Below are positions 21,007-33,775 of a stretch of 39,047 nucleotides of DNA, piece after piece. The notes under the pieces were generated by a model. The model was given only the letters and a program-made list of their open reading frames with translations, made no database searches and was not told the origin of the DNA. This DNA is from Patescibacteria group bacterium (GTDB lineage: Bacteria; Patescibacteriota; Patescibacteriia; Patescibacteriales; WJLG01): NCBI GenBank assembly GCA_028707065.1, contig JAQTUZ010000015.1, positions 1-39,047 of the forward strand, read 5' to 3'. How positions within the stretch are numbered: the stretch's first letter is position 1; each line of letters opens with the position of its first letter. A program made the translations under genes and the position numbers.

Positions 21007-21057
21007 TAACACACCCCATCCCGCCCCGGTGGCGGTCCACCCCTCTCAAGAGGGGAA
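21007..21057 (-). repeat. GC-rich palindromic element, variant A, intergenic copy
   Basis: On the minus strand it reads TTCCCCTCTTGAGAGGGGTG, then GACCGCCACCGGGGCGGGAT, then GGGGTGTGTTA. It is the same element that is inserted in miaA and miaB. It ends 9 bp before the NUDIX start codon. Confidence 0.8.
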
Positions 21058-21517: not shown

Positions 21518-21900
21518 GCGAGCATTGGAAAATTTCCGTAATCACGCAGCGTAGAAGCCGTGCAAAATTGCGTTGTCCGAAGCCCAGCTCCAGTTTTCGT
21601 GAAAGAATATGATAAATTATTATCTTAAAATAGCTGTGATATTAAAAAATATTAAATTAAAATAATAAAACTGGGGCTGGGCAAGTATAGCAATTTTGCT
21701 AGGCTTCATAGCGGAGTGATAGGAAATTTGTCCAGCGAGCATTTTTTTGCGCCACTTTTTTTAAAAAAAGTGGCAAAGATTTTGATAATAATGTCAGTAA
21801 TATACCCACCCCGCCTCGCCGGGCTCGGCACCCCTCCCAAGAGGGGAATGATTCCGCCCGACCCAAAAATTTATAATTTATCATTTATAATTTATAATTG
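21518..21900. repeat. Composite repeat region (copy 1), no gene
   Basis: The 414-bp gap before dnaE holds no protein-like ORF. Its parts recur in inverted order at 28290-28640: GCGAGCATTGGAAAATTTCC, a segment with GCTTCATAGCG and AAATTTGTCCAGCG, the A/T stem GCCACTTTTTTTAAAAAAAG, and a GC-rich palindromic element (21803-21849). It ends with TATAATTTATCATTTATAAT words just before the dnaE start. Confidence 0.7.
21803..21849 (-). repeat. GC-rich palindromic element, variant B, intergenic copy
   Basis: On the minus strand it reads TTCCCCTCTTGGGAGGGGTG, then CCGAGCCCGGCGAGGCGGGG. The inner stem CCGAGC/GGCGAGG distinguishes variant B. Confidence 0.75.
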
Positions 21901-21902
21901 AC

Positions 21903-24900
21903 GTGTCCTTCGTCCATCTCCACAATCACACCCATTATTCCTTGCTCGACGGTCTGACCAAGATCGACGAGATGGTTAAGTATGCCAAAGAGCAGGGTTC
22001 GCCGGCGGTGGCCATCACTGATCATGGCACGATGTACGGCGTGATCGAATTTTACGAAAAATGCAAGAAAGAAGGGATCAAGCCGATCATCGGCGTGGAA
22101 ACTTATCTGGCTCCCCGCGGCCGGATGCTCAAAGAAACCGTGGAGGACCGGGCCAATCATCACCTTTTGTTGTTGGCCAAAGATAATCAAGGCTATAAAA
22201 ATTTGATCAAACTGGTTTCGGCCGCGCATCTGGAAGGCTTTTATTATAAGCCGCGGGTCGACTGGGATTTGTTGCAGCAGTATCACGCAGGTTTGATCGC
22301 CTGCACCGCCTGCATGGGCGGAGAGATTCCGCATTTGATCGAAGCGCGCCAGATGGAAAAAGCCAAGAAAAGAATTTTGGAATACAACGAACTTTTCGGC
22401 CAGGGAAATTTTTATCTGGAATTGCAGGATCACCCCAATCTGGAAGGCCAGGATTTTTTGAATAAAACCTTGATCGCTTTCGGCAAGGAGTTGAATATTC
22501 CGCTGGTCGCCACCAACGATATCCATTATTTCCGCAAAGACGACGCGGAAGCGCAGGACATTCTGCTTTGCCTGCAGAACAAGAAAAAAGTCGAGGACGA
22601 AGACCGGATGAATATGATGGGCACGGATTTTTCCATGCGCTCGAACGAGGAAATGATCGGGGCTTTCAGGGATGTGCCCGAAGCCGCGGCCAATACTTTA
22701 AAGATCGCCGAGTTATGCAACGTGGAGATCGAATTGGGAAAAGTGCAGCTGCCTTTTTTTCCCGTACCGGCCGGGTTTGATGAGATCAGTTATTTGGAGC
22801 ATTTGGCTCATGAAGGATTGAAGAAACGCTATGGCAAGCCTTACGCCGAGATCGATAAAATAAAAAAAGACCGGCTGGATTACGAAATTTCCGTCATTAA
22901 GAAAATGGGCTGGCCGTCATATTTTTTGATCGTCGCAGATTTCATCAATTGGGCCAAGGATACGGGGATCATCGTCGGGCCGGGCCGAGGTTCGGCGGCC
23001 GGTTCGCTGGTTTGCTATCTGACGGGCATCACCAATATCGATCCTTTAGAGTACGATCTGCTTTTTGAAAGATTTTTAAATCCCGAGCGCATCTCCATGC
23101 CGGATATCGATACTGATTTCGCCGATACCGGCCGCGACGCGGTGATCCGCTACGTGGAAGGGAAATACGGCAAGGATCATGTTTCGCAGATCATCACTTT
23201 CGGGACGATCGCCGCCCGGGCTTCAATGCGCGATGTCGGCCGCGTGCTGGATATTCCTTATGATTTTTGCGACAAGCTGGCCAAGGCCATCCCGATGTTC
23301 ACTGACCTGTCCGAAGCCCTGGAAAATATCAAAGAGTTCAGAGATCTGTATGACAAGGAACCGGATGCCAAAAAAATTATCGATTATGCCTTGCGTTTGG
23401 AAGGGGTTGCCCGCCATGCTTCCACGCACGCCTGCGGAGTTTTGATCACCAAAGAGCCGCTGACCGAATACGTGCCGATCCAATATGCCTCATCTTCGGA
23501 TCTGACCGTGGTTTCGCAGTATTCTTTGCATCCGATCGAAGATCTGGGTTTGTTGAAAATGGATTTTTTGGGCTTGAAAAATTTGACCATCATCGAATCG
23601 GCGCTAAAGATCATTAAGCGCACCAAAGGAGCGGAGTTGAAGATGGATGAATTTCCTTTGAACGATAAAAAAACTTATCAGTTATTTCAGGACGGCGAAA
23701 CTACCGGTGTCTTTCAATTTGAATGTTTATCCGGAGACACAATTGTTTCCAATACCACTATTAAAAAATTATATGAAAAAAGAAACAAAACAAAGCTTAA
23801 TTCGGTTTATTTAGATCAGGGTAAAGTTCATAAAAATGAAATTGTCGGTATCGCTAAAAGCGGTGAAAAAGAAACTTTTTATCTTGTTGCGGAAAATAAT
23901 TGGCAGATAAAGGCGACGAAAGACCATGGTTTCTTAACAGACGGCGGGTGGAAAAAATTAGGTGAAATAAAAAAGGGCGACAATATTTTAATTAAAGCGG
24001 ACGCCAAACATTTGGTTTATAATCTTTGCCGAACTTGCGGCAAGCAAATAAGCGGACAAAAGAACGGGAAAAGCGAGTATTGTTATGCTTGTTCGGCGGC
24101 GTTATATAAAAATCCCGGCAAAAAAAAATCAAGGCGGAAAATTAAAGCGGCTAGAGTGGCCTTCTTTAGGCGCGGAGGCGTAACCTGGAATATCGGCTTG
24201 CGCAAGAATATCGACCAAAGGCTGGAAATGAGCGGGAAAAAAATATCCCAAGCATTAATCGGGCGCTCACTGGTAGATCGTTGCGGACGCGCCAAAGCCG
24301 ATTTGATAAAAAAGAAGCTGTCGCGAAGATTCAGCGGCGCCGGAAATCCGATGTTCGGAAAAAAATCACCGCATCGCCGCGGCGGATTCAGAGAAGATCT
24401 GGGCCATTATGTGCGTTCATCATGGGAGGCGGATTTTGCCAGAATTTTAAAGCTGAATAAAATAACTTACGAATACGAACCGAAAACTTTTTCTTTGCGC
24501 AAACCAGACGGAAGGACGGTTAATTATACGCCGGATTTTTATGTAAAAGATCAAAATACTTTTTATGAAATAAAGGGGTGGATGCATGATCTGGACAAGG
24601 AAAAAATTGAATTGTTTCAGAACCAATATCGGCAGTATAAATTCACGCTGATTAATACGACTAAATTCGCCGAGCTGGCTTTGCAATATAAAAAATTAAT
24701 CAACTGGGAGTGTCCCCGAATTCCGGTCGAAAGGCAATTTAAATTCATAAAAGTTAAAGATATTATCCCGGCCGGAAAAGAAATGACTTACGATATCGCT
24801 ATGCGTCCGCCGGGAAATAATTTTGTCGCTAACGGCTTTTTGGCGCATAATAGCAGCGGTATGAAACGGTATTTGAAAGAATTAAAACCGACCGTCTTCG

Positions 24901-26591
24901 AAGATATCATCGCCATGTCGGCGCTCTATCGCCCCGGTCCGATGGAATGGATCCCTGATTATATCGCCGGCAAGCACGGCCAGAAAAGAGTGCAATATTT
25001 GCATCCGGTGTTAAAGCCGATCTTGGATAAAACTTATGGCGTGGCGGTTTATCAGGAACAGGTGATGCAGATCGCCCGCGACCTGGCCGGGTTCACTTTA
25101 GGCGAGGCGGATGTTTTGCGCAAAGCGGTGGGCAAAAAAATCTCCGAGCTTTTGGTCAAACAAAAGGAAAAATTCGTCGAGGGCTGCATGAAAAAAGGCG
25201 TGGCCAAGGAATTGGGCGAACAAATTTTTTCTTTTATCGAACCTTTCGCCGGCTACGGCTTTAACCGGTCGCACGCCGCTTGTTACGCGATGATCGGTTA
25301 TCAAACCGCTTATTTAAAAGCCCATTATCCGGCGGAATTCATGGCCGCGCTGTTAAGCTCGGACCAGCAGGATATCGACCGCATCGCCATTGAGATCGAA
25401 GAGTGCCGCAATATGGGAATCAAAGTGCTTTCACCGGACATCAATGAATCTTTCGCGTCGTTTACCGTGGTCAAGGATGAAAATACCGGCGAAGAATTCA
25501 TCCGCTTCGGCTTGAACGCGATCAAAAATGTCGGCGAACATATTGTCGAAGTGATCATTAACGAGAGAAAGGCCAATGGCAAGTATCAGGATATTTTTGA
25601 CTTGCTGGAAAGGATCGTGGACAAAGATCTGAATAAAAAATCTTTGGAATCATTGACTAAATGCGGCGCGCTTGACCAATTCGGCGATCGCGGCATGTTT
25701 TTGGCCAATATGGAATCTCTGCTGGAATATAATAAAGAAGTCAGCCGCAATCGGGATTCCAAACAGAGCAGTTTGTTCGGCAATTCCGCGACCAATATGC
25801 CTTCCCGGATCAAACTCGACAAAGCGACGACGGTGGGTCAGCAGGAAAAATTAGCCTGGGAAAAAGAATTGCTGGGACTTTATTTGAGCGCTCATCCCTT
25901 TAATGATTTTAAAAAACATTTAGGAGATTTTGTATTTCCGATCAATAGTTTAGCCTCGCATCTTTACGAAGACGCGGTCCGTACCGCCGGCGTGATCACC
26001 GTCGTTAAAAAAATTATCACCCGGAGCAATAAGCCCATGCTCTTCGTCAAGATCGAAGATGCGGTTGCTTCCACCGAGCTCTTGATCTTTCCTAATCTCT
26101 ATGAAACGACCGCCGAGCTCTGGCAAGAAGGCAGGGTCGTTTTGGCGCAGGGAAAAATTTCCGACAAAGACCAGGAGATAAAATTATTAGTGGACAAGGC
26201 GGCAGTCTTGACTCTGGATAAACTGGACGAATCGATCAATAATTTTAAAAATATCGAAGTCGCGGCCAGAAAACAGTTTAATGGCTACGGCAATAATGGC
26301 AATAATAACGGATTTTATCGTCCCCAGACCCGAGCCGCCAAACCGGCGGCTCCGGCAACGCCCCCGCCGCTTAAATTGATTTTCAAGCGCGATTTAAACG
26401 CGGACGAATCAGCCCGCTTAAAAGAGATTTTAACCAAAGCGTCAGGACAAAGCTTAGTTTACTTCAAAATAATCCGGAACAACGAACCGGTCATTTTTCA
26501 GGCCGGTTTTCGGGTGAGAAATGACGCTGATCTGACCGGCTTCATCAAAAAAGAATTTTCCGACTCGATCGAGGTTGTAGACGCCAAATAG
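21903..26591 (+). CDS. dnaE: DNA polymerase III alpha subunit, interrupted by an intein
   Basis: This is the replicative polymerase. The GTG start at 21903 (MSFVHLHNHTHYSLLDG) begins the PHP domain at the usual place. The precursor has 1562 residues; removing a 376-residue intein leaves 1186, normal for DnaE. Catalytic aspartates are D401 and D403 (MPDIDTDFAD) and D554 (LKMDFLGLKNL); GPGRGSAAGSLVCYLTGI is also intact. The intein lies between E607 and a Ser, in the conserved VFQFE/SSGMKRYLKELKP. After the intein come the fingers (YGVAVYQEQVMQIARDLAGF), a helix-hairpin-helix region and an OB fold at the C-terminal side (VRTAGVITVVKKI). Because the host protein is essential, splicing must work. 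Confidence 0.97.
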   Translation: MSFVHLHNHTHYSLLDGLTKIDEMVKYAKEQGSPAVAITDHGTMYGVIEFYEKCKKEGIKPIIGVETYLAPRGRMLKETVEDRANHHLLLLAKDNQGYKNLIKLVSAAHLEGFYYKPRVDWDLLQQYHAGLIACTACMGGEIPHLIEARQMEKAKKRILEYNELFGQGNFYLELQDHPNLEGQDFLNKTLIAFGKELNIPLVATNDIHYFRKDDAEAQDILLCLQNKKKVEDEDRMNMMGTDFSMRSNEEMIGAFRDVPEAAANTLKIAELCNVEIELGKVQLPFFPVPAGFDEISYLEHLAHEGLKKRYGKPYAEIDKIKKDRLDYEISVIKKMGWPSYFLIVADFINWAKDTGIIVGPGRGSAAGSLVCYLTGITNIDPLEYDLLFERFLNPERISMPDIDTDFADTGRDAVIRYVEGKYGKDHVSQIITFGTIAARASMRDVGRVLDIPYDFCDKLAKAIPMFTDLSEALENIKEFRDLYDKEPDAKKIIDYALRLEGVARHASTHACGVLITKEPLTEYVPIQYASSSDLTVVSQYSLHPIEDLGLLKMDFLGLKNLTIIESALKIIKRTKGAELKMDEFPLNDKKTYQLFQDGETTGVFQFECLSGDTIVSNTTIKKLYEKRNKTKLNSVYLDQGKVHKNEIVGIAKSGEKETFYLVAENNWQIKATKDHGFLTDGGWKKLGEIKKGDNILIKADAKHLVYNLCRTCGKQISGQKNGKSEYCYACSAALYKNPGKKKSRRKIKAARVAFFRRGGVTWNIGLRKNIDQRLEMSGKKISQALIGRSLVDRCGRAKADLIKKKLSRRFSGAGNPMFGKKSPHRRGGFREDLGHYVRSSWEADFARILKLNKITYEYEPKTFSLRKPDGRTVNYTPDFYVKDQNTFYEIKGWMHDLDKEKIELFQNQYRQYKFTLINTTKFAELALQYKKLINWECPRIPVERQFKFIKVKDIIPAGKEMTYDIAMRPPGNNFVANGFLAHNSSGMKRYLKELKPTVFEDIIAMSALYRPGPMEWIPDYIAGKHGQKRVQYLHPVLKPILDKTYGVAVYQEQVMQIARDLAGFTLGEADVLRKAVGKKISELLVKQKEKFVEGCMKKGVAKELGEQIFSFIEPFAGYGFNRSHAACYAMIGYQTAYLKAHYPAEFMAALLSSDQQDIDRIAIEIEECRNMGIKVLSPDINESFASFTVVKDENTGEEFIRFGLNAIKNVGEHIVEVIINERKANGKYQDIFDLLERIVDKDLNKKSLESLTKCGALDQFGDRGMFLANMESLLEYNKEVSRNRDSKQSSLFGNSATNMPSRIKLDKATTVGQQEKLAWEKELLGLYLSAHPFNDFKKHLGDFVFPINSLASHLYEDAVRTAGVITVVKKIITRSNKPMLFVKIEDAVASTELLIFPNLYETTAELWQEGRVVLAQGKISDKDQEIKLLVDKAAVLTLDKLDESINNFKNIEVAARKQFNGYGNNGNNNGFYRPQTRAAKPAAPATPPPLKLIFKRDLNADESARLKEILTKASGQSLVYFKIIRNNEPVIFQAGFRVRNDADLTGFIKKEFSDSIEVVDAK
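23724..24851 (+). mobile_element. DnaE intein with a zinc-ribbon/NUMOD3-like/PD-(D/E)XK-type nuclease
   Basis: The 376-residue intein starts CLSGDTIVSN (Cys1) and ends FVANGFLAHN with the penultimate His and terminal Asn; the +1 residue is Ser. Block B is KATKDHGFLTDGGWKKLGEI (T-x2-H). Between the splicing blocks, residues about 100-340 carry a C-x2-C ... C-x2-C ribbon (CRTCGKQ, YCYAC), Lys-rich NUMOD3-like modules (GNPMFGKKSP; SGKKISQALIGR) and a nuclease-like core with SSWEADFARIL, TPDFYV (D878 of the precursor) and YEIKGW (E889, K891). The PD...ExK layout points to a PD-(D/E)XK fold. No LAGLIDADG motif is seen. It is probably a mobile homing element; activity is inferred. Confidence 0.9.
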
Positions 26592-28290: not shown

Positions 28291-28640
28291 GTCCCCTCCT
28301 CGGGAGGGGTGCCGAGCATGAGCGAGGCGGGGAGGGTTTATTCCCGACATTATTATTCTGTCATTCCCGTCCCCGTTGTCACGAGGATAAACTCCGGCGG
28401 GAATCCAGAGTACGAGCACAGTCAACATCTTTGCCACTTTTTTAAAAAAAAGTGGCGCATACAAACCACCCCCAAACCCCTCCTTGGAAAGGAGGGGAGA
28501 CGCGCTGGACAAATTTTGGGACGCTTCGCTATGAAGCCGTGCCCCGCCGCAGGCGGGGCGCGGTTTCCCTGTCCGCCTTGGGAGGATACTCTGCGTGCTT
28601 TAACGGAAATTTTCAATGCTCGCTATAAGGAAGTTTATTT
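28291..28640. repeat. Composite repeat region (copy 2), no gene
   Basis: It holds a GC-rich palindromic element (28292-28340), a 'GTCATTCCCG...CGGGAATCCAG' palindrome (about 28359-28409), the A/T stem GCCACTTTTTTAAAAAAAAG (28431-28455), a second CCCCTCC/GGAGGGG palindrome (28463-28499), the segment TGGACAAATTTTGGGACGC with CGCTATGAAGC, a GCCCCGCC/GGCGGGGC hairpin and GGAAATTTTCAATGCTCGC. Most parts match 21518-21900 in reverse order. A 113-codon open frame here only translates repeats. Confidence 0.7.
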
Positions 28641-31284: not shown

Positions 31285-32721
31285 ATGAAAAAGTCTTACC
31301 ATATTATCACGATCGGCTGCCAGATGAATATTTCCGATAGCGAGCGGATCGCCGCTTATTTGGAATTCTATGGCTTTAAACCCGAATCAGACCGCGCTAA
31401 AGCTGGTTTGGTAGTTTTGAATACCTGCGGCATCAGGCAGAAAGCCGAAGACCGCAATTACGGCCTGATTCCCGCGATCAAGAAAAAAAATCCGCGCGCC
31501 AGAATAATCCTGACCGGCTGTCTCTCGGAAAGAAAAGACGTGAGGCGAAGACTGGAAGAAGTCGTGGATATCTGGCTGCCAATAAAAAATTTACCCCGAC
31601 TTTATCGCGAACTTGACTTAAAAAAAGTCCCCTCTTGCTTGCCCCGCAAAGCGAAGCGATGCGCGGGAGAGGGGTGCCGAGCTTCCCCTCTTGGGAGGGG
31701 TGGACGCGCCTCGCGGACGGGGTGGGTTGGCGAGGCGGGGTGTGTGACGCCGGGTTCAAGTGACTATTTGAATATAACACCTAAAATAAGTTCCGATTTT
31801 TCCGCCTACGTGCCGATCGGCAACGGCTGCGATAATTTCTGCTCCTATTGCGTCGTGCCGTATGCCCGCGGGCGCGAGGTCTATCGTCCGGCCGGCGTGA
31901 TTATCGCGGAAGTGAAGAAATTTATTGATCGGGGATATAAGGAGATTGTTTTGATCGCGCAAAACGTGAATAGTTATGAAACCATGATCACCAAAAGTGA
32001 TTTGAAATATTTTCCTAAGAAAAAGATTGGCCAGGAAATATTTTTCCCCGAGATACTTGATGCCGCCGCTAAATTGCCCGGAGATTTTTGGCTGAGATTT
32101 TTCACTTCCCATCCGAAAAATATGAGCGATGAGCTGGTCGCGGTGATGAAAAAAAATTTCAAGATCTGCCGGCAGATCCATCTTCCGGCGCAATCTGGCG
32201 ACGACCAGATTTTGGCGGCAATGAACCGTAAATATACCGTTAAGCATTATTTGAGTTTGATTAAAAAATTAAGAACCGCCATGCCGGAAATTGGAATTTC
32301 CACGGATATTATTGTTGGTTTTCCCGGCGAAACCAAAAATCAATTCGCCAATTCGGAAAAATTAATGCGAGCGGCGAAATATGATATGGTTTATCTGGCT
32401 CGTTTCAGTTCGCGGCCTGGCACGGCAGCGGCCAAATTGAAAGATAATATTTCGGCCAAAGAAAAACAGCGGCGCGAAGAAATATTAAATGAAATTTTGA
32501 AAAAAACTGCTTGGAAAAATAATCAGCGGTATCTGAATAAAGCGGTCAAGGTTTTAGCTGAAGAAAAAAATAAGAGAGGGGAATGGCTGGGCAAAAATGA
32601 ACAATTCATTACGGTAAAAATTTTGGGCTCGGCTAAAGTTGATTTAAAAGGCGAATTTGCTAAAGTTAAAATTACCGAAGCCAAAGATTTTGGGCTCACT
32701 GGCAGCTTAGTAAAATATTAA
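31285..32721 (+). CDS. miaB: tRNA-2-methylthio-N6-dimethylallyladenosine synthase MiaB, with in-frame palindrome insertion
   Basis: A radical-SAM methylthiotransferase that turns i6A37 into ms2i6A37. The N-terminal UPF0004 domain binds the auxiliary cluster through Cys in ITIGCQMN, LNTCGIR and LTGCLSE. The radical SAM motif is GCDNFCSYCVVPYARGRE. The C-terminal TRAM domain starts near KAVKVLAEEK. The chain has 478 residues; residues about 115-155 (PSCLPRKAKRCAGEG and on to GEAGCVTPG) are encoded by a 123-bp nested palindrome. Without them the length is about 437, normal for the family. The insertion sits in the variable linker before YLNITPK, so function is probably kept. miaA follows 4 bp downstream. 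Confidence 0.96.
   Translation: MKKSYHIITIGCQMNISDSERIAAYLEFYGFKPESDRAKAGLVVLNTCGIRQKAEDRNYGLIPAIKKKNPRARIILTGCLSERKDVRRRLEEVVDIWLPIKNLPRLYRELDLKKVPSCLPRKAKRCAGEGCRASPLGRGGRASRTGWVGEAGCVTPGSSDYLNITPKISSDFSAYVPIGNGCDNFCSYCVVPYARGREVYRPAGVIIAEVKKFIDRGYKEIVLIAQNVNSYETMITKSDLKYFPKKKIGQEIFFPEILDAAAKLPGDFWLRFFTSHPKNMSDELVAVMKKNFKICRQIHLPAQSGDDQILAAMNRKYTVKHYLSLIKKLRTAMPEIGISTDIIVGFPGETKNQFANSEKLMRAAKYDMVYLARFSSRPGTAAAKLKDNISAKEKQRREEILNEILKKTAWKNNQRYLNKAVKVLAEEKNKRGEWLGKNEQFITVKILGSAKVDLKGEFAKVKITEAKDFGLTGSLVKY
31628..31750 (+). repeat. Nested GC-rich palindromic insertion in miaB
   Basis: The outer element is variant B: CCCCTCT...AGAGGGGTGCCGAGC...TGGCGAGGCGGGGTGTGT. Its first loop holds a hairpin (TTGCCCCGC...GCGCGGGAG) and its second loop holds a full variant A element (TTCCCCTCTTGGGAGGGGTG, GACGCGCCTCGCGGACGGGG). 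The total is 123 bp, or 41 codons, in frame. The first 48 bp are identical to 32910-32957 in miaA. Confidence 0.85.
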
Positions 32722-32725
32722 GAAA

Positions 32726-33775
32726 ATGAATAAAAATAATAAAAAAATTATTGTAATATTAGGCACAACAGCGTCGGGCAAAACTTTGCTCGGGGTGGCT
32801 TTGGCGCGAGAATTCAACGGCGAAATAATTTCCGCCGACAGCCGCCAAGTCTATCGCGGCCTCGACATAGGTTCAGGCAAAGATTTGTCCGAATATGGCG
32901 AGAAAAATTCCCCTCTTGCTTGCCCCGCAAAGCGAAGCGATGCGCGGGAGAGGGGTGGACGGCCCCTGGCCGGACGGGGTGTGTTAAACTTGAACGAAAC
33001 GTCTATCTCGTTTGTGCTGCATCATCTTATTGATATTGCCGATCCAAAGGAAATTTTCAGCGTAGCCGAATATCAGAAACAAGCTTTCGCCGCCATTGAA
33101 GATATTCTACAGCGCGGCAAACTGCCGATCATCGTCGGCGGTTCCGGCCAATATTTGGAGGCAGTAGTAGAAAATTATCAATTAACCGACATCAAGCCGG
33201 ATATGGCGGCTAGAGCTGAAAACGAAAACAAAACCACCGAAGAATTATTCGAAGAATTAAAAAAGAAGAACCCTGCTTTTGCCGCAAAATTAAATAATAG
33301 CGACCGGAATAATAAGAGAAGATTGATTCGATATTTGGAAGTCGCAAATAATTCCCCTCTCGAGAGGGGTGGACGGCCCCTGGCCGGACGGGGTGTGTCA
33401 AACGGCCGCCAGTACGAATTTTTATTGATCGGTCTCACTTGGTCTAAGGAAGCTCTGGCCGAGCGGATCCACCGCCGCCTGATCGACCGTCTGGAAAAAG
33501 AGGGGATGATCCAGGAGGTGAGCGATCTGCATGACAAAACCGGCCTAACTTGGGAACGTCTCGAATCTTTCGGTTTGGAATATAAATTTATCGCTCAATA
33601 TCTGCAGGAAAAAATAGATTACGATCAAATGGCCGAACTGCTCGACCGCGCCATCAATCAATTCGCCAAAAAACAAATGACTTGGTTCAAACGCTGGGAA
33701 AAGAAGAGAAAAATTAGTTGGTTAAATGATAAAATCAAAGCGGAAAAAATGGTCGAAGATTTTTTGGAGAAATAA
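32726..33775 (+). CDS. miaA: tRNA dimethylallyltransferase MiaA, with two in-frame palindrome insertions
   Basis: It transfers a dimethylallyl group to A37 of tRNAs reading UNN codons, the step before MiaB. The P-loop is GTTASGKT (13-20); ISADSRQVYRGLDIGSGK and HHLIDIADPKEIFSVAEYQ follow, then IIVGGSGQYLEA and the basic C-terminal KKQMTWFKRW. The length is 349 residues. Two stretches, about 62-87 (SPLACPAKRSDARERGGRPL...) and 210-225 (SPLERGGRPLAGRGVS), are encoded by palindromic repeats; without them the chain is about 307, as expected. The first lies between GLDIGSGK and HHLID, the second in the loop before FLLIGLTW. It is transcribed with miaB. Confidence 0.97.
   Translation: MNKNNKKIIVILGTTASGKTLLGVALAREFNGEIISADSRQVYRGLDIGSGKDLSEYGEKNSPLACPAKRSDARERGGRPLAGRGVLNLNETSISFVLHHLIDIADPKEIFSVAEYQKQAFAAIEDILQRGKLPIIVGGSGQYLEAVVENYQLTDIKPDMAARAENENKTTEELFEELKKKNPAFAAKLNNSDRNNKRRLIRYLEVANNSPLERGGRPLAGRGVSNGRQYEFLLIGLTWSKEALAERIHRRLIDRLEKEGMIQEVSDLHDKTGLTWERLESFGLEYKFIAQYLQEKIDYDQMAELLDRAINQFAKKQMTWFKRWEKKRKISWLNDKIKAEKMVEDFLEK
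32909..32987 (+). repeat. GC-rich palindromic insertion 1 in miaA
   Basis: Variant A: CCCCTCT...AGAGGGGTGGACGGCCCC, TGGCCGGACGGGGTGTGTTA, with the same internal hairpin as in miaB in the first loop. Confidence 0.85.
33353..33400 (+). repeat. GC-rich palindromic insertion 2 in miaA
   Basis: The minimal variant A: TCCCCTCTCGAGAGGGGTGG, ACGGCCCCTGGCCGGACGGG, GTGTGTCA. Its second half is almost identical to that of insertion 1. Confidence 0.88.

Follow-up and report, generated by a model that had tools for sequence, protein, structure and literature searches.

Two adjacent tRNA-modification genes of a Patescibacteria group bacterium, miaB and miaA, carry GC-rich palindromic segments within their coding sequence, which raises the question of what these segments are and how they came to lie there. 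An earlier note on the window (the whole stretch of DNA that was analysed, 39,047 nucleotides) had described them as insertions, in frame and in variable loops, and alignment of MiaA and MiaB with about 30 relatives bears this out. The insert residues have no equivalents in these relatives, and the inserts occupy variable-length loops between conserved blocks that are empty or differently filled elsewhere. The nearest genome (G001), from the same genus and with a miaA 80% identical to the one studied here, lacks all of the miaA and miaB inserts, and the outer miaB element is found neither there nor in the approximately 30 relatives. In total, miaB contains one nested double insertion and miaA contains two insertions, with the reading frame open throughout (Table 1); the in-gene inserts would give peptides of the SPLERGGRPLAGR type. 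A GC-rich insert of about 35 nt (TTGCTTGCCCCGCAAAGCGAAGCGATGCGCGGG), itself a hairpin, resides in the hairpin 1 loop of about ten copies as a second-order insert. In order-level relatives (L165, L157, L183, L182), the same MiaA and MiaB loops hold unrelated repeat-derived stretches, e.g., CGLDPQSR...SGFRLGGRNDV, RSFDFAQDD and PAKCGTPLLRGD, so the loops appear to serve as insertion sinks in general.

The copies between genes that had been reported near positions 21007, 21803, 28292 and 28463 are also real, with two refinements. The one near 28463 belongs to a different subfamily (subfamily 4), the type that flanks the DUF559 gene of locus L035, and the one near 21007 lies inside a called open reading frame, upstream of its NUDIX domain and probably upstream of the true start of the NUDIX gene. 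The dnaE gene in the window contains an intein, the middle part of which reads as an inserted nuclease domain (EIKGW motif).

Table 1. Element copies and associated genes in the window
Feature	Position	Strand	Length	Details
Copy probably upstream of NUDIX gene	21009-21056	-		
Intergenic copy	21804-21847	-		arm GGAGGGG, TGGGT end, then subterminal tail ATATTACTGACATTATT
dnaE	21903-26591			intein (PF14890, residues 617-983)
Intergenic copy	28292-28337	+		GGGGAGGGT end, then tail TTATTCCCGACATTATT common to DUF559 gene leader
Intergenic copy, subfamily 4	28465-28498	-		arm AAGGAGGGG, end GGGGGTGGTT
miaB ORF (host gene)	31285-32721	+	478 aa	UPF0004, Radical_SAM and TRAM domains flank the insert
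Outer element in miaB	31628-31745	+		hairpin 1 with ~35-nt GC loop insert, split second hairpin, 3′ end GGGGTGTGT
Loop insert TTGCTTGCCCCGCAAAGCGAAGCGATGCGCGGG	31636-31669			
Inner element in miaB	31684-31727	+		sits inside the outer element, in its second-hairpin loop; hairpin CCCCTCTTGGGAGGGG, arm GGAGGGG, 3′ end GGGGTGGGT
miaA ORF (host gene)	32726-33775	+	349 aa	IPPT domain
Element copy 1 in miaA	32909-32984	+		with ~35-nt loop insert; 3′ end GGGGTGTGT
Loop insert TTGCTTGCCCCGCAAAGCGAAGCGATGCGCGGG	32917-32950			
Element copy 2 in miaA	33353-33398	+		CCCCTCTCGAGAGGGG, second hairpin, GGGGTGTGT

Searches of the 1.51 Mb genome with the hairpin pattern CCCCTCNNNNGAGGGGTG yielded 95 matches and none for the pattern read backwards, which excludes chance. 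In the 252 kb of stretches around the pattern matches, 128 complete copies were recognised, a lower bound that is biased to CCCCTC hairpins and was counted only in those stretches. Sixty-six copies lie in open reading frames with at least 40 and at least 25 codons on the two sides; 36 such insert-bearing frames are at least 150 aa long, and the 29 of these that are Pfam-supported contain 42 copies. The Pfam-named host genes include those for UvrD-, RecG- and RecQ-like helicases, RarA, DNA polymerase III delta, an exonuclease III-like protein, aminoacyl-tRNA synthetases, LepA, QueA, TsaD, Der, FemAB, glycosyltransferases, MurD-like and Mur ligases, a P-type ATPase and a dCTP deaminase-like protein. 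Among the 42 copies, sense frames 0, 1 and 2 account for 12, 3 and 1, and antisense frames 0, 1 and 2 for 18, 5 and 3. With all six frames in use, the proposal that a single frame (SPL...RGGR) is tolerated is wrong, and it is openness in frame that selection keeps. Element lengths overall show no bias to multiples of three. Copies inside genes probably survive if they are open in frame and located in loops.

As the genome is a draft of 42 contigs with 4.8% estimated contamination, the inserts might be thought to be artefacts of assembly or binning. This is extremely improbable, since the independently obtained G001 genome also carries the element, with copies in the dCTP deaminase-like gene and tsaD at about the same sites, and the frames are open in the 29 Pfam-supported genes.

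Copies also occur in compound arrangements. Divergent doublets 26-37 bp apart, resembling REPIN doublets, are present in this genome (G000) at C1:34462/34493, C11:9640/9666, C11:32009/32038 and C20:6828/6859, and closely spaced divergent, REPIN-like pairs are found in a Mucilaginibacter genome (G328). At L119 (G000:C7:39034-39248), a tandem duplication with a period of about 157 bp carries element pairs together with their flank. Several elements (L014, L015, L022, L136, L140 and others) sit in the loop of another inverted repeat with arms CGCGAATACTACGAACC and GGTTCGTAGTATTCGCG; nested elements likewise occupy second-hairpin loops. Insertion into inverted-repeat loops as a general rule was rejected, the cases being striking yet showing no general excess over shuffled flanks.

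Anatomy of the element

Each element end, of which TCCCCTCTTGAGAGGGGATTTAGGGGTGTGT is an example, comprises a C-rich/G-rich hairpin, then either a second, freely varying hairpin or a linker only a few bases long, and then a G-rich 3′ end that mirrors the purine arm of the first hairpin. Element length ranges from 34 to 100 nt, and the consensus of the commonest class, which has two separate hairpins before its mirror 3′ end, reads A-A-(G/T)-TCCCCTCT-YG-AGAGGGG, followed by TGG-stem-loop-stem-AC (or other second hairpins) and GGGGTGTGT-T-A. The second hairpin takes 65 sequences among 111 copies and keeps its complementarity, with a mean stem of 4.4 compared to 3.0 when the left half of one copy is combined with the right half of another. 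Many genomes of other phyla have a linker of just 2-5 nt, e.g., TCCCCTCTTGAGAGGGG-ATTTA-GGGGTGTGT. In the TGGGT and AGGGT classes, TATTCCYGACATTATT often follows the 3′ end and is also found in the leader of two DUF559 genes here. In the dCTP deaminase-like gene (L144/L247), where this genome and G001 both carry the element, hairpin 1 and the 3′ end are conserved between the two genomes and the second hairpin is wholly different.

The flank consensus is A-K before the element and T-A after it. No target-site duplication was found, flanks of 15-25 bp being no more alike than shuffled pairs, which leaves room for a very short one. Together, these two observations suggest end joining or copying into AT-rich sites, and the missing target-site duplication speaks against a classical DNA transposon or MITE. 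At L034 (1290-1365 and 1885-1940), the gene upstream of a DUF559 unit has some 58 nt of its end repeated, in diverged form, just past the right end of the unit, which could be a long, old duplication from insertion.

Their size, palindromic shape, intragenic occurrence and REPIN-like doublets make it conceivable that the elements belong to known REP or RPE families (GTAG or CGTC REPs, RPE-4/6) and made their way into genes, the more so as intragenic REPs are known in several bacteria (PMC3733652). The sequences themselves make this very improbable: in the six bases before the hairpin, GTAG occurs in 0 of 123 copies and CGTC in 1 of 123, no Rfam family matches the element, the partner gene differs, and no RAYT flanked by repeats, or any other RAYT, was detected in the genome.

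DUF559 genes between inverted copies

All six DUF559 genes in this genome lie between inverted copies of the element, mostly of the matching subfamily. The protein reaches the Pfam gathering score for DUF559 (PF04480) with conserved D, E-x-D and H residues, and its structural model (pLDDT 91) resembles the gonococcal endonuclease-like protein 3hrl, I-Bth0305I and Vsr; as modelled, it is a small Vsr/EDxHD-type PD-(D/E)XK nuclease.

A scan of 84,980 genomes with the DUF559 proteins of this genome provided 80 loci from Planctomycetota, Bacteroidota, Nitrospirota, Chloroflexota, Neomarinimicrobiota, Moraniibacteriota, Proteobacteria and others, 78 of them with enough flanking sequence. When the upstream flank was compared with the reverse-complemented downstream flank, and a score of at least 30 was required, inverted flanks were present in 57 of these 78 loci of other phyla and in 3 of 1662 control windows from the same loci; about a quarter of the DUF559 loci are without clear inverted flanks at this threshold. 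Among 30 extra phylum loci, for which open reading frames were found crudely, 16 were scored and 10 of these 16 reached at least 30. The bracketing repeats in other phyla have the same architecture as those described here, the left arm is of the same class as the right arm in 43 of 47 loci, and arm classes cluster on the DUF559 tree (13 changes compared to 31.8 when shuffled), a signal of which host relatedness may account for part.

In related genomes, the number of copies roughly follows the presence of DUF559: 96 pattern copies accompany six DUF559 genes, 23 accompany one gene and a fragment (G001), and 3 are found with none. In another genus, 35 copies occur with three DUF559 genes, 6 with four (G190), 2 with one and 0 with none, so the numbers scale poorly. 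Counting a single hairpin pattern across the phylum is of limited use, as arm sequences are particular to each lineage. Solo copies are also present in Bacteroidota, in Mucilaginibacter, Muricauda and Winogradskyella genomes that include isolates.

The reading that we consider fairly likely is that the inserts are solo ends of a mobile element, whose ends would fold into an intramolecular triplex and be processed by the DUF559 nuclease. Neither transposition nor excision was observed, nor any insertion that is recent and polymorphic. DUF559 might instead be a passenger or beneficiary, captured between copies of palindromes that some other host or viral enzyme moves. Solo copies do far outnumber DUF559 units, G190 has four DUF559 genes and few copies, and free-standing, non-mobile DUF559 relatives exist, DUF559 being an ordinary chromosomal gene in the case of Caulobacter VsrA (PMC12907096). 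Such a capture would nevertheless have to recur in many lineages, always with the DUF559 family, and the excess of inverted flanks over control windows across many phyla, the tracking of DUF559 phylogeny by arm class and the retention of the nuclease motif all weigh against it. In addition, Y1_Tnp/RAYT (PF01797) had no match in this genome in searches that were positive in control genomes. The passenger scenario is unlikely, and processing of the ends by the DUF559 nuclease is the preferred reading.

The hairpin and 3′-end code

In this genome, the purine arm of hairpin 1 and the 3′ end change together. The arm AGAGGGG is accompanied by the end GGGGTGTGT in 72 of 72 copies, and the arm GGAGGGG, opposite the same 5′ arm CCCCTCT, by the end GGGGTGGGT in 30 of 30 copies (P ~ 2e-26), from a search that had already required one of a few 3′ ends; a less filtered tally gives 74 and 31 with a handful of exceptions. 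In all 30 copies whose stem places T opposite G, it is the purine arm that the 3′ end matches.

Placed antiparallel to the purine arm, the 3′ end sets G on G and T (or A) on A. Purine-motif (reverse-Hoogsteen) triplexes are built from these triads, in which G lies on a G-C pair and either T or A on an A-T pair, and at the level of sequence the elements show the antiparallel third strand that such a triplex calls for. Across 112 DUF559-flanking elements of other phyla, an arm A meets T in 119 positions, A in 34 and another base in 7, and an arm G meets G in 140 and another base in 12. This corresponds to a 90.4% fit to the triplex rule, compared to a permuted mean of 67.9% (maximum of 5000 permutations, 74.5%), and the fit with repeats collapsed is 76.7% compared to 58.4% permuted (0 of 5000). 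The run at the foot of the hairpin equals the run at the end in 93 of the 112 elements. When the rule was afterwards tried on a separate lineage with different arms (G122/G190/G050), all copies that were read fit, with arm GGAGGGGA paired with end GGTGGGGT and arm GAGGGGGA with end G(A/T)GGGGGT. Other ways of reading the 3′ end were rejected: the fit is about 56% for a plain mirror (A to A) and about 38% for Watson-Crick pairing, compared to 90% for the triplex rule, and a direct repeat leaves the class-dependent part unexplained.

The hairpin probably specifies the 3′ end through triplex contacts, judging from these sequence patterns. A triplex of 7-9 triads is short, and a protein can read a mirror code just as a triplex can. 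It is possible, if somewhat improbable, that the code is a mirror motif read by a protein, or that the subfamilies were simply inherited by descent; subfamilies do exist, and several features co-vary, e.g., the TATTCCYGACATTATT tail in the TGGGT/AGGGT classes. Inheritance of entire subfamilies does not account for the code, however, as six second-hairpin sequences are found in each of the two classes, with arm and 3′ end changing in step. The code also holds across phyla for arms that differ in sequence and in G-run length, the plain mirror falls well short of the triplex rule, and the end follows the purine arm even where the stem has T opposite G. Purine-motif triplexes are a feature of DNA, which makes RNA an unlikely substrate.

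Proposed mechanism and comparison with known systems

The full element would be a DUF559 gene between two inverted ends, with the inserts as its non-autonomous solo ends. In a single-stranded state, the hairpin would form and the 3′ end would fold back along the purine arm as a third strand, giving a short purine-motif triplex that marks the cut site. The cognate DUF559 nuclease would recognise this fold and cut there, and the end would be copied or joined into new AT-rich places without a detectable target duplication. The nuclease would act on many solo ends as well, a logic comparable to that of RAYT with REPs but with another enzyme. More tentatively, and with the balance of probability tilting slightly against it, the elements may represent a widespread, undescribed class of mobile DNA in which DUF559 recognises triplex-folding ends, the triplex code and not a fixed sequence specifies the cut site, and subfamilies evolve by paired changes of arm and end.

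Intragenic REPs (PMC3733652) and RPEs (PMC2229807) are already known, so insertion into genes by itself adds a new case to a known kind. The earlier note regarded the inserts as not described for this lineage, which agrees with our search of open-access papers; it overlooked the kinship of the copies with the ends of DUF559 units, the spread over many phyla and the hairpin and 3′-end code. Among the open-access papers searched, nothing links DUF559 to palindromic, repeat or mobile elements, and nothing relevant was found there on palindromic repeats in Patescibacteria or on triplex-ended insertion sequences. To judge by these searches, both the nuclease partner and the 3′-end code are new. The bracketing of small nuclease genes across many phyla and the triplex-type match between the two parts of the element suggest an undescribed mobile DNA family. 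DUF559 proteins are common and without an agreed role, and if they move structured DNA ends, a large family of unknown function becomes a mobile-element enzyme. Use of a triple helix as a recognition code would give H-DNA-like structures a rare natural role. The in-gene copies indicate how readily conserved proteins (tRNA synthetases, MiaA, MiaB, TsaD, RarA, MurD and others) take up additional segments, whatever the frame.

Elements of the IS200/IS605 type have hairpin ends and a cut site set by base contacts within the element, in a guide/target logic. The ends described here are alike in having hairpins and a cut site apparently specified within the element itself. IS200/IS605 elements use an HUH transposase and base pairing, whereas here there is no HUH transposase and the code is a mirror (purine-motif triplex) code; identity with IS200/IS605 or other HUH transposons was rejected on the lack of a Y1 tyrosine transposase in the genome. 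The fold and nuclease core of DUF559 are common to the EDxHD homing endonuclease I-Bth0305I and to Vsr, but the former sits in a group I intron, the latter repairs T-G mismatches, and neither is known with palindromic brackets.

The Rickettsia palindromic elements (RPEs), to which the inserts had been likened, are 105-146 bp long with a long terminal inverted repeat (PMC2229807). The parallel stands as far as entry into coding genes in frame is concerned: RPEs and CGTC REPs are likewise palindromic, occur in and between genes and are translated in frame within conserved proteins (PMC2229807, PMC3733652). The inserts are very probably not RPEs themselves, as neither the RPE length nor the single long terminal inverted repeat of that description was found; RPEs have no known enzyme, whereas the present elements have a linked nuclease gene, a length of 34-100 bp, another architecture and use of all six frames. 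REPtrons, i.e., REP elements with RAYT (Y1/HUH) transposases (PMC3733652), likewise comprise many short palindromic repeats and a small gene bracketed by inverted copies, with solos, doublets and some intragenic copies. Their partner is a tyrosine transposase, whereas the partner here is a DUF559 nuclease of the PD-(D/E)XK/EDxHD fold, and in place of a GTAG tag the present elements carry a hairpin and a mirror 3′ end with a triplex-type code.
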